Origin: Candidatus Nanoarchaeia archaeon
Lineage (GTDB): Archaea; Nanobdellota; Nanobdellia; Woesearchaeales; SKGA01
Assembly (NCBI GenBank): GCA_028691765.1
Contig: JAQUYS010000003.1
Span: 1-50,922 of the forward strand
Length of the DNA stretch: 50,922 nt
Direction of reading: 5' to 3'
Below, piece after piece: positions 30,426 through 40,652 of this stretch. Below the pieces are notes generated by a model. It was not told the origin of the DNA and ran no database searches. It worked only from the letters and a program-made list of their open reading frames with translations. How positions within the stretch are numbered: position 1 is the stretch's first letter; every line of letters begins with the position of its first letter. Made by a program: the position numbers and the translations under genes.

Positions 30426-30544
30426 GCCTTGATAGTGTAGTCCGGCCTATCATATCGCCCTGTCGAGGCGATGACCCGGGTTCGAAAACTCAGCAACTGG
30501 CTAATCGACAGCCAAGTGCTGTATCGATTGTCCCGGTCAAGGCG
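30426..30544 (+). tRNA. tRNA-Asp(GTC) with 44-nt intron in the T-loop
   Basis: Acceptor GCCTTGA/TCAAGGC, G73; anticodon arm TCGCC-CTGTCGA-GGCGA; T-stem CCGGG-TTCGAA[intron 30487-30530]T-CCCGG. Confidence 0.9.
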
Positions 30545-30553
30545 CTTTGTTGT

Positions 30554-30660
30554 GAGCTGGTGGCTCAGTCTGGAGAATTAATCGTATTGATTTTTTCGGA
30601 CACTAGAGCACCTGACTTTTAATCAGGTGGTCGCGAGTTCAAATCTCGTCCAGCTCGCCA
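30554..30660 (+). tRNA. tRNA-Lys(TTT) with 30-nt intron in the D-loop, CCA encoded
   Basis: Acceptor GAGCTGG/CCAGCTC, G73, CCA; D-arm GCTC-AGTCTGG[intron 30574-30603]TA-GAGC; anticodon arm CCTGA-CTTTTAA-TCAGG; T-arm TTCAAAT. Confidence 0.9.
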
Positions 30661-30697: not shown

Positions 30698-30931
30698 ATG
30701 GTTGAACAACTAAAACATAATTTAATACCACAACATGAAAAGCTTTCTGAAGAACAAAAACAAAGATTGTTTGAAAAATACAATATCTCCTTTAAAGAAC
30801 TACCAAAAATTCATGTTTCTGATGCAGCAATAAGACATTTAGATCCAAAATATGGAGATGTAATTAAAATAACAAGAAAAAGTCCGACAGCAGGAAGAGC
30901 TATTTTCTACAGAGGTGTTTCACGTGACTGA
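30698..30931 (+). CDS. rpoH: DNA-directed RNA polymerase subunit H (Rpb5 C-terminal domain)
   Basis: LIPQHEKLSEEQKQRLFEKYNISFKELPKIHVSDAAIRHLDPKYGDVIKITRKSPTAGRAIFYRGVS. Confidence 0.95.
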   Translation: MVEQLKHNLIPQHEKLSEEQKQRLFEKYNISFKELPKIHVSDAAIRHLDPKYGDVIKITRKSPTAGRAIFYRGVSRD

Positions 30932-31466
30932 AATGAGTAATGCAAAATTATTATTAAAAAAGTATTTCGAAGAAAATTCTTTAGTAAATACAGACATAAA
31001 TTCATTTAATCGATTTGTTAATGAAGATTTAAATAAAATTCTAGAAGAAAATAAAGTTATTGAACCAACAATTATTCCGCCTAATGTCGACGAATTTAAA
31101 ATTCAATTTGATAATATTTGGGTTGGGAAACCAGAAATAACTGAAGCAGATGGTTCAAAAAGAGATGTTTATCCTATGGAAGCAAGATTAAGAAAATTAT
31201 CTTATTCTGCACCAATATATTTGGAAGTTTCAGCGCACATCGATGGGGTTCAAAGAGAAAGTTTCAAATTACAAATAGGAAATTTACCAATTATGTTAAA
31301 AAGTCAATTTTGTCATCTTAATGGATTAACTAAAGACGATTTAATTAAACATGGTGAAGATCCAAGTGATCCAGGCGGTTATTTTATAATTAATGGTTCA
31401 GAAAAAGTTCTTGTTAAAATTGAGGATTTAGCAGCAAATAGATTCATGTGGAAAAAGAAGCAATAG
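30924..31466 (+). CDS. rpoB2: RNA polymerase subunit B'' N-terminal part (interrupted)
   Basis: RpoB''-like: PMEARLRKLSYSAPIYLEV...GGYFIINGSEKVLVKIEDLAANRFMWKKKQ*; homology continues in the other frame. Confidence 0.88.
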   Translation: MTEMSNAKLLLKKYFEENSLVNTDINSFNRFVNEDLNKILEENKVIEPTIIPPNVDEFKIQFDNIWVGKPEITEADGSKRDVYPMEARLRKLSYSAPIYLEVSAHIDGVQRESFKLQIGNLPIMLKSQFCHLNGLTKDDLIKHGEDPSDPGGYFIINGSEKVLVKIEDLAANRFMWKKKQ

Positions 31467-32410
31467 GTGTTTCAGATTATGTTGGAAAATTATTTTCTGG
31501 AAGAGGTTCTTATAAAATTCCTCATGAATTAGAAAAATTAAAAGATGGAATATTTTATTTAACATTTACAAGAGTTAAAAGAATCCCGGTAGTATTAATC
31601 TTAAAAGCATTAGGCATGTTAAAAGATTCAGACATCATGAAAAACATTGGTTTGAATGATGATAATGAAGTATTTGTAAACTTATTTGAATTTGTAGATG
31701 TAAAAGATCAAGAAGAAGCGTTAGATTTAGTTGCTAAAAAAATTGGTATTGCACAAGCAAGAGAAATTCGTGTTGCAAGAGCACAAGAAATTTTAGACAA
31801 GTATTTATTCCCTCATCTTGGAGTTACAGAAGAAAACAGATTATTCAAAGCATCAAATATTTGTAAATACATAAATACTTATATCCGAATTACAAGAGGA
31901 GAATTACCTGAAACAGATAAAGATCATTATGCAAATAAAAGATTAAAATTATCAGGAGATTTATTGGGAGATTTATTACGTGTTAACATAAAAGTATTAA
32001 TTGGAGATTTATTATATAATTTCCAAAGAATCGTTAAACGAGGAAAAATCCCAAGCATAAAAGTAATAATTCGAGAAAAACTTCTAACTCAAAGAATATA
32101 CAGTAGCATGGCTACAGGTAATTGGGTTGGTGGAAGACCAGGAGTATCACAAAGATTAGCAAGACAAAACTTTTTAGATTTGTTATCTGCATTACAAAGA
32201 GTAGTTAGTCCATTATCTTCAACACAAGAAAATTTTGAAGCACGTGCACTTCACTCAACACATTTAGGAAGATTATGTCCTAGTGAAACTCCAGAAGGAC
32301 CAAATATCGGGTTAAGAAAAAACCTTGCAATTTTAGCAAGTGTTACACATACTGTTAACGAAGAAGAATTAATGAAATCCTTGAAAAAAATAGGTTTGGA
32401 GAATGATTAA
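31448..32410 (+). CDS. rpoB2: RNA polymerase subunit B'' C-terminal part
   Basis: VEKEAIGVSDYVGKLFSGRGSYKI...ATGNWVGGRPGVSQRLARQNFLDLLSALQRVVSPLSSTQ...RLCPSETPEGPNIGLRKNLAILA. Confidence 0.9.
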   Translation: MEKEAIGVSDYVGKLFSGRGSYKIPHELEKLKDGIFYLTFTRVKRIPVVLILKALGMLKDSDIMKNIGLNDDNEVFVNLFEFVDVKDQEEALDLVAKKIGIAQAREIRVARAQEILDKYLFPHLGVTEENRLFKASNICKYINTYIRITRGELPETDKDHYANKRLKLSGDLLGDLLRVNIKVLIGDLLYNFQRIVKRGKIPSIKVIIREKLLTQRIYSSMATGNWVGGRPGVSQRLARQNFLDLLSALQRVVSPLSSTQENFEARALHSTHLGRLCPSETPEGPNIGLRKNLAILASVTHTVNEEELMKSLKKIGLEND

Positions 32411-34214
32411 AATGGCAGATGTATTTATTGATAATAAATTTATAGGAACAGTTAAAGACGGTTATTCATTTGCAGAAAGATTCATTTCAGAAAGACGTAT
32501 GAATAGATTAGATGCGTCAGCAAATATTCTTGTTGATAAAAATACTTCTAACGTATACATTGAAACTTCTTCAGGAAGAACCATCAGACCATTAATTGTA
32601 GTAAAAGAAGGAAAATCTCTTTTGTCAAAAAAACATTATGAACAGTTAAAAGCAAATGAAATTGCTTGGTCTGATTTAATCAAACAAGGGATTATTGAAT
32701 ATTTAGATTCAACAGAAGAAGAAGGAGCTTTAGTTGCATTCGATGAAAAAGATTTAACTACCGAGCACACACATTTAGAAATTAGTCCTACTGCAATAGT
32801 TGGAATAATTACAGCGTTAGTTCCATTTGGACATCACAATTCAGGTCCTCGTTTACTTCAAGGTTCTAAAAACCAAAAACAAGGAATTGGATTTTATGCT
32901 GCAAATTTTCCATTAAGAATGGATACTGATTCAAACTTGTTACATTATCCACAAGTTCCAATCGTTTCATCTATTCTTTATGACTTAACGCAATATGAAA
33001 AACATCCAAGTGGACAAAATGTAATTGTTGCAGTTATGTCTTATCAAGGATACAATATTGAAGATGCGGTAATTCTTAACAAAGGAAGCATAGATAGAGG
33101 ATTTGGTAGAAGCACTTATTTCAATCCTTTAGTTGCTGAAGAATTAAGATACTCAGGTGGATTATTAGATGAAATTTGCATTCCAGATAAAGAAGTTAAA
33201 GGATATAGAAGTGAAAAAGATTATCGATTATTAGATGATGATGGAATAATTACTCCAGAAGCGTATGTTAAAGAAGAAGATGTTATCATTGGAAAAACTT
33301 CTCCTCCAAGATTCCTTAATGCAATGGACGAATATAATCTTGCTACAAATTCAAGAAGAGAATCTTCCGTAAGTATTGCACATGGAGATCAAGGAATTGT
33401 AGATATGGTTCTTCTAACTGAAAGCGAAGATGGAAATAAATTAATTCAAGTTAGATTAAGAGAACCAAGAATTCCTGAATTAGGAGATAAATTTACTTCA
33501 CGTCATGCACAAAAAGGAATAGTTTCTTTAATCGTTCCAGAAGCAGATGTACCTTTTACAATAACCGGAGTAAAACCTGACATCATATTTACCGCACACG
33601 GTGTTGTATCACGTATGACTGTTGGTCACTTATTAGATTTATTGGGTGGTAAGATTGGTGCACTTGGTGGAAGATTTATAGATGGAACTATTTTCGATTC
33701 AGAAAAAGAAAAAGATATGAGGGTAGAATTATTATCATATGGTTTCAAAGAAAATGCAACCGAAACAATGTTTAATGGAGTAACGGGTGAAGAATATAAA
33801 GTAAAAATATTCGTTGGACCTATGTATTACTTAAGATTAAAACATCAAGTTAGAAATAAATTACATTCAAGAGCTTTAGGACCTATACAACTTCTTACAA
33901 GACAACCTACAGAAGGTCGTGCAAAAGAAGGAGGATTAAGATTAGGAGAGATGGAGAAAGATACTTTAGTTGCTCATGGAGCGAGTATGCTTTTGAAAGA
34001 AAGATTTGATTCAGATAAAACAATAATTCCTATTTCAGATGAAAGTGGAATTGTTGCAGTTCATGATGCAAGAAAAGGAAGAAATTATTGTCCTATTGCA
34101 GGTGAAGATGCAGGAATTGAACAAATTGAAATGTCATATGCCTTCAAACTTATATTGGATGAATTCAAATCACTTTGTTTATATCCAAAATTAAATTTGA
34201 AATCAAAATACTAG
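32403..34214 (+). CDS. rpoB1: DNA-directed RNA polymerase subunit B'
   Basis: VAVMSYQGYNIEDAVILNKGS; LGDKFTSRHAQKGIVSLI; KLHSRALGPIQLLTRQPTEGRAKEGGLRLGEMEKDTLVAHGAS. Confidence 0.96.
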   Translation: MIKMADVFIDNKFIGTVKDGYSFAERFISERRMNRLDASANILVDKNTSNVYIETSSGRTIRPLIVVKEGKSLLSKKHYEQLKANEIAWSDLIKQGIIEYLDSTEEEGALVAFDEKDLTTEHTHLEISPTAIVGIITALVPFGHHNSGPRLLQGSKNQKQGIGFYAANFPLRMDTDSNLLHYPQVPIVSSILYDLTQYEKHPSGQNVIVAVMSYQGYNIEDAVILNKGSIDRGFGRSTYFNPLVAEELRYSGGLLDEICIPDKEVKGYRSEKDYRLLDDDGIITPEAYVKEEDVIIGKTSPPRFLNAMDEYNLATNSRRESSVSIAHGDQGIVDMVLLTESEDGNKLIQVRLREPRIPELGDKFTSRHAQKGIVSLIVPEADVPFTITGVKPDIIFTAHGVVSRMTVGHLLDLLGGKIGALGGRFIDGTIFDSEKEKDMRVELLSYGFKENATETMFNGVTGEEYKVKIFVGPMYYLRLKHQVRNKLHSRALGPIQLLTRQPTEGRAKEGGLRLGEMEKDTLVAHGASMLLKERFDSDKTIIPISDESGIVAVHDARKGRNYCPIAGEDAGIEQIEMSYAFKLILDEFKSLCLYPKLNLKSKY

Positions 34215-40551: not shown

Positions 40552-40652
40552 GGGCCTGTAGCCTAGTCTGGACAGGGCATTCGGCTTCGGGAGCTTTAAT
40601 TTTAGCTGGAGATACCGAAGGGTCAGGGGTTCGAATCCTCTCAGGCTCACCA
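40552..40652 (+). tRNA. tRNA-Arg(TCG) with 23-nt canonical 37/38 intron, CCA encoded
   Basis: Acceptor GGGCCTG/CAGGCTC, A73, CCA; anticodon stem TTCGG/CCGAA; loop CTTCGG[gagctttaattttagctggagat, 40591-40613]A; T-arm AGGGG-TTCGAAT-CCTCT. Confidence 0.92.

Follow-up and report, generated by a model that had tools for sequence, protein, structure and literature searches.

A non-canonical D-loop intron in tRNA-Lys(UUU) of a Woesearchaeales archaeon, at a site recurrently interrupted across the order

Non-canonical introns in the D and T arms of archaeal tRNAs have been described mostly from Crenarchaeota, Thaumarchaeota and Nanoarchaeota, at sites that include 20/21 in the D arm and 59/60 in the T arm (PMC4090602; PMC8450103). 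The bulge-helix-bulge (BHB) introns of Thermoproteales, Thaumarchaeota and Nanoarchaeum are short, lie outside the anticodon loop and end at a BHB junction; up to three may interrupt one tRNA, and similar introns occur in different tRNAs of one genome. The introns described here share these features. Unlike in those groups, however, the host lineage is Woesearchaeales, the predicted position is 19/20, the same tRNA-Lys site recurs order-wide, and at the level of sequence the EndA is encoded by a single gene with neither a detectable beta subunit nor a recognizable CSL/ASL-type loop. Canonical introns at position 37/38 follow the same junction logic and presumably depend on the same enzymes, and the orthologous tRNA-Lys of one relative (G003) carries one, but the central helix of the intron studied here is built from D-loop rather than anticodon bases. 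The tRNA-Lys intron is of a known kind, in a lineage, Woesearchaeota, for which we found no description of tRNA introns in the open-access papers searched.

The interrupted tRNA-Lys gene

The window, that is, the whole 50,922-nt stretch of DNA that was analyzed, is contig C46 of a Woesearchaeales (DPANN) MAG of 1.09 Mb in 99 contigs, and its rpoB is closest to those of Woesearchaeota/Nanoarchaeota MAGs (77% to JAFGOT010000030, 76% to JAGQJW010000020). An interrupted tRNA-Lys(UUU) gene occupies positions 30554-30660 of the + strand, as supported by ARAGORN on the spliced form and by orthologues. The first-pass annotation had proposed that removal of 30574-30603 would leave a standard D-arm, and this is exact to the base. 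Joining 30554-30573 to 30604-30660 gives GAGCTGG TG GCTC AGTCTGGTA GAGC A CCTGA CTTTTAA TCAGG TGGTC GCGAG TTCAAAT CTCGT CCAGCTC G CCA, which ARAGORN calls as tRNA-Lys(ttt) of 77 bases with perfect acceptor, D, anticodon and T stems of 7, 4, 5 and 5 bp. The anticodon TTT is at 30618-30620, G73 at 30657 and an encoded CCA at 30658-30660. The 30-nt intron (30574-30603, + strand) is placed in the D-loop between G19 and U20 by the empty site in relatives and by the BHB register, corresponding to position 19/20 by standard numbering with U17a counted as present. Unspliced, the gene received no ARAGORN call and no Rfam match in the window search, and only the tRNA family search of the single genome returned a partial match, of 28 bits.

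The junction has all the BHB parts that were first described for it. The exon strand of the central helix, GTCT (30568-30571, D-loop bases G15-U17a), pairs with the intron strand GGAC (30598-30601), leaving the 3-nt bulges GGA (30572-30574) and ACT (30602-30604) on opposite strands; the 3' bulge is AAT or ACT in most other genomes. The inner helix, GAATTAATC/GATTTTTTC, consists of 3 bp, two T.T mismatches and then 4 bp, and on the outer side lies the 4-bp D-stem, preceded by an A14.A21 mismatch. By register, the predicted cuts fall after 30573 and after 30603, and the proposed rule of cutting after nucleotide 2 of each bulge indeed restores the D-loop AGTCTGGTA. Shuffling the intron 200,000 times at constant composition gave 280 cases (~0.14%) of a central helix of 4 bp with 3 inner bp in the exact register.

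In RNAfold, the strict BHB of the window gene lies 3.7 kcal/mol above an alternative whose longer helix closes the 5' bulge, so that this bulge is absent from the predicted minimum-energy fold, and the BHB was the best structure in 8 of the 23 examples folded. A scan of the window for the BHB alone discriminated poorly, giving 34 candidates in 300 nt and ranking the true motif 14th by a crude score. We prefer the predicted BHB structure on comparative evidence over single-sequence folding. A group I intron was ruled out, as 30 nt compares with a core of ~250 nt or more and there was no Rfam match. The idea that the T-tracts of the intron are assembly noise was likewise rejected, because the junctions agree with other genomes.

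Two genomes of the same family, G001 and G004, have the orthologue at the equivalent Asp-Lys-RNA-polymerase locus, and in both the Lys site is empty. The spliced 77 nt align to these genes end to end with no gap, at 95% (G001:C31) and 94% (G004:C36) identity, which establishes that the 30 nt were inserted when the standard gene is taken as reference. The neighboring tRNA-Asp(GUC) (30426-30544, + strand), 9 nt upstream of tRNA-Lys, is interrupted by a 44-nt intron in the T-loop (approximately 30487-30530). The Asp-Lys pair thus carries a T-loop and a D-loop intron in the window, no intron in either tRNA in G001 and G004, and canonical 37/38 introns in both tRNAs in G003. Downstream, a 77-aa ORF that resembles RNA polymerase subunit H (rpoH) by eye (30698-30931, + strand) lies between tRNA-Lys and its conserved neighbor rpoB (30915-34214, + strand; B'' split between two overlapping frames, followed by B'). 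In most of the Woesearchaeota rpoB loci that extend far enough upstream, tRNA-Lys is present there, as it is in one Archaeoglobaceae and one Thermoplasmata outgroup, where it has no intron. Within rpoB'' (window 31440-31470), overlapping frames of 183 aa and 320 aa stand where the relative L031 has a single 501-aa ORF, a frame change that reflects either an error in the assembly or a true frameshift in this essential gene.

The same site across Woesearchaeales

The first-pass annotation had suggested comparing orthologous tRNA-Lys genes for intron presence or absence, and both states were found: the empty sites of G001 and G004, and introns at the same site in other genomes. A strict Lys-specific pattern, run on 246 Woesearchaeales genomes, recovered 40 D-loop introns from 39 of them, and a reversed-pattern control matched nothing. 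A looser pattern, which also recovers the window gene, yielded 85 sites, spread over 73 of 244 genomes, and the control was again empty. By hand-counted anticodon, these comprised 47 Lys(UUU) sites in 46 genomes, 15 Ile, 9 Arg, 7 Lys(CUU), 4 Met and 3 Ala. Some tRNA-Lys genes carry three introns, in the D-loop, at 37/38 and in the T-loop (for example L046, L056 and L066).

The Lys D-loop introns (n=41) range from 12 to 34 nt and differ in their interiors. D-loop bases 15-17a are fully paired with the four bases of the intron that precede the 3' bulge in 35 of the 41, compared to 10 of 804 other positions in the same introns (1.2% expected). The exon and intron strands covary (GCCT/GGGC, GTCT/GGAC, GTCC/GGAC and GCTT/GAGC), with two-sided changes of the central helix in several different families. 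None of 20,000 shuffles reached the observed number of Watson-Crick pairs, although shared ancestry inflates this test.

On a tree of rpoB, the Lys D-loop intron is scattered, requiring 11 changes, of which at least 7 are forced by well-supported branches, with gain and loss not distinguished. Its presence did not cluster on this tree relative to shuffles, with the state of L051 uncertain. Judged from these comparisons, the Lys D-loop is an order-wide recurrent intron site with many gains, many losses or both, and not a one-off. The site offers dozens of natural comparisons of presence and absence at one orthologous locus beside rpoB, which should be useful for understanding how tRNA introns are gained and lost.

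Other introns in the genome and the origin of the Lys intron

Hidden tRNAs of the window genome were sought with a tRNA family search and a GGTTCRAA T-arm pattern, and 80 stretches were examined. The census is incomplete, since 100 of the 111 places matching the pattern were listed and control matches were frequent (73). So far it contains canonical introns in tRNAs for Pro, Arg(UCU), Gly(UCC), Tyr, Phe, Ile(UAU), Met and Arg(GCG), T-loop introns in those for Asp, Phe, Ile, Met and Arg(GCG), and an anticodon-stem intron in tRNA-Ser. Within the window, tRNA-Pro(CGG) (40552-40652) has a canonical 37/38 intron of 23 nt. Elsewhere, Ile(UAU), Phe, Arg(GCG) and Met (L022/L005, L205, L240 and L010, on C77, C39, C77 and C84) each carry both a 37/38 and a T-loop intron. 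Ile, Arg and Phe have T-loop introns of 44 nt with similar sequences; these align without gaps over 45 nt, with 33 of 45 positions identical between Ile and Arg, and the Asp intron resembles them more weakly. It is plausible that T-loop introns have been copied between tRNA genes, including the neighboring Asp.

The search also returned a tRNA-like gene with UUA, the ochre codon, at the anticodon position and without U33 (L017, G000:C93:981-1056), a tRNA-like element whose acceptor and T arms are good but whose D arm is very poor (L025, G000:C22:444-511), and the T-arm and 3' acceptor strand of another tRNA, the 5' part of which is probably hidden by introns (L028/L190, G000:C91 near 12046). 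Isotypes such as Ala, Val, Asn and Trp were not found in this incomplete census of G000, and they are probably more intron-disrupted genes. In this large order of uncultured archaea, many tRNA genes are concealed by non-canonical introns. Because standard finders miss such genes, apparent gaps in tRNA sets should not be counted as gene loss.

The empty-site orthologues, the interruption of the same site in other genomes and the covarying central helix together argue that 30574-30603 is almost certainly a genuine non-canonical archaeal tRNA BHB intron in a functional, single-copy gene. If the gene were instead a decayed or insertion-damaged pseudogene, with another tRNA reading AAA codons, its being missed by standard gene finders would be expected. 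We consider this highly improbable, as all stems are intact after splicing, the genome, which is 99.5% complete, yielded no second Lys(UUU) gene to a tRNA family search or to a search with the spliced sequence, and introns of the same site and structure occur in dozens of genomes with covariation. The degenerate tRNA copy for which the first-pass annotation had proposed examining orthologues was thus not what these revealed.

The introns of the two adjoining tRNAs had initially been read as recent spread, and for tRNA-Asp this has some support, its T-loop intron resembling those of Phe, Ile and Arg; the Lys intron, however, shows no convincing relationship to them. One recent burst of intron copying that struck both tRNA-Lys and tRNA-Asp would agree with the likeness among the T-loop introns and with the absence of both the Lys and the Asp intron from sister genomes, but it is an unlikely source of the Lys insertion, which differs from the T-loop set in length and site and does not significantly resemble any of the other introns recovered from the genome (14 comparisons, lowest P by shuffling 0.017). 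Moreover, since the Lys site is recurrent across the order, its adjacency to tRNA-Asp is not in itself evidence of one spreading event. Somewhat more credible, yet still doubtful, is a D-loop intron that was ancestral in Woesearchaeales tRNA-Lys and underwent numerous losses, those in G001 and G004 among them. The identical site and similar boundary motif (GG/A ... GGGC AA/T) in many families would follow from such a history, but that motif is imposed by the exon via the BHB, the intron interiors are unrelated in sequence, and the scatter on the rpoB tree also counts against it, to the extent that a tree blind to gain versus loss can.

Splicing enzymes and the proposed route

In the reviewed picture of EndA specificity, narrow enzymes are those of the alpha4 and alpha'2 types, introns with relaxed motifs are efficiently removed by (alpha-beta)2 and epsilon2 enzymes, and CSL or ASL loops accompany intron-rich tRNA sets (PMC6379350; PMC4090602; PMC12397907). 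The window genome encodes one EndA-type endonuclease of 217 aa, with PF02778 and PF01974. Its nearest solved relative is the alpha subunit of Nanoarchaeum equitans (3IEY, E 1.2e-36), followed by the enzyme of Methanocaldococcus jannaschii. Exactly one EndA gene exceeded the cut-off in each of 31 Woesearchaeales genomes, single- and few-contig ones included. No beta subunit was detected in these 31 genomes, where other matches fell far below the cut-off; a very divergent one could have been missed by the search. The catalytic Tyr-His-Lys triad is invariant or nearly so among 18 sequences and is intact in the window genome.

N. equitans, which has split tRNAs and an (alpha-beta)2 EndA, belongs to the same broad archaeal group, whereas in the gene studied here both exons lie in cis, one EndA gene was found, and this EndA lacks the insertion that N. 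equitans alpha has before the catalytic His. The alpha4 EndA of M. jannaschii (1A79), a single subunit of ~180 aa, aligns ungapped through the N-terminal domain and active site, so that in sequence alignment the N-terminal domain of the EndA of the window genome has no insertion relative to it. A. pernix alpha has 88 residues where this EndA has 80, about 8 extra as counted from sequence rather than structure. The M. jannaschii type is classed as narrow (PMC6379350), but Woesearchaeales carry introns at non-canonical sites.

D-loop, T-loop and triple tRNA introns occur in the order alongside a single short EndA, and this combination does not fit easily into the reviewed specificity picture. 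Many of the introns keep a nearly strict BHB, and a narrow enzyme might cut such a motif wherever it is placed. We give an even chance to the proposal that a single-gene EndA without a partner serves the non-canonical introns of the order, with the Lys D-loop as a site of recurrent turnover. If true, this would break the accepted tie of relaxed intron positions and motifs to broad-specificity (alpha-beta)2 or epsilon2 enzymes. The coexistence of non-canonical introns with a single short EndA also makes the hypothesis of enzyme-substrate coevolution directly testable.

The intron, the empty sites, the covarying BHB and the enzyme genes are all read from the genomes, and they suggest the following route. 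The precursor would probably be a joint Asp-Lys transcript, the Asp part of which would be spliced in its own T-loop. In the Lys part, the central helix would form between D-loop bases G15-U17a and the intron's end, the EndA-type endonuclease would cut after base 2 of each 3-nt bulge, and RtcB, which is also encoded in the window genome, would ligate the exons to restore the D-loop. The RtcB ORF (G000:C24:4286-7078; L251, L252) is 996 aa long and contains an apparent intein of ~460 residues, with junctions GFDIN/CLSKDSK and VVSN/CGVRLL.
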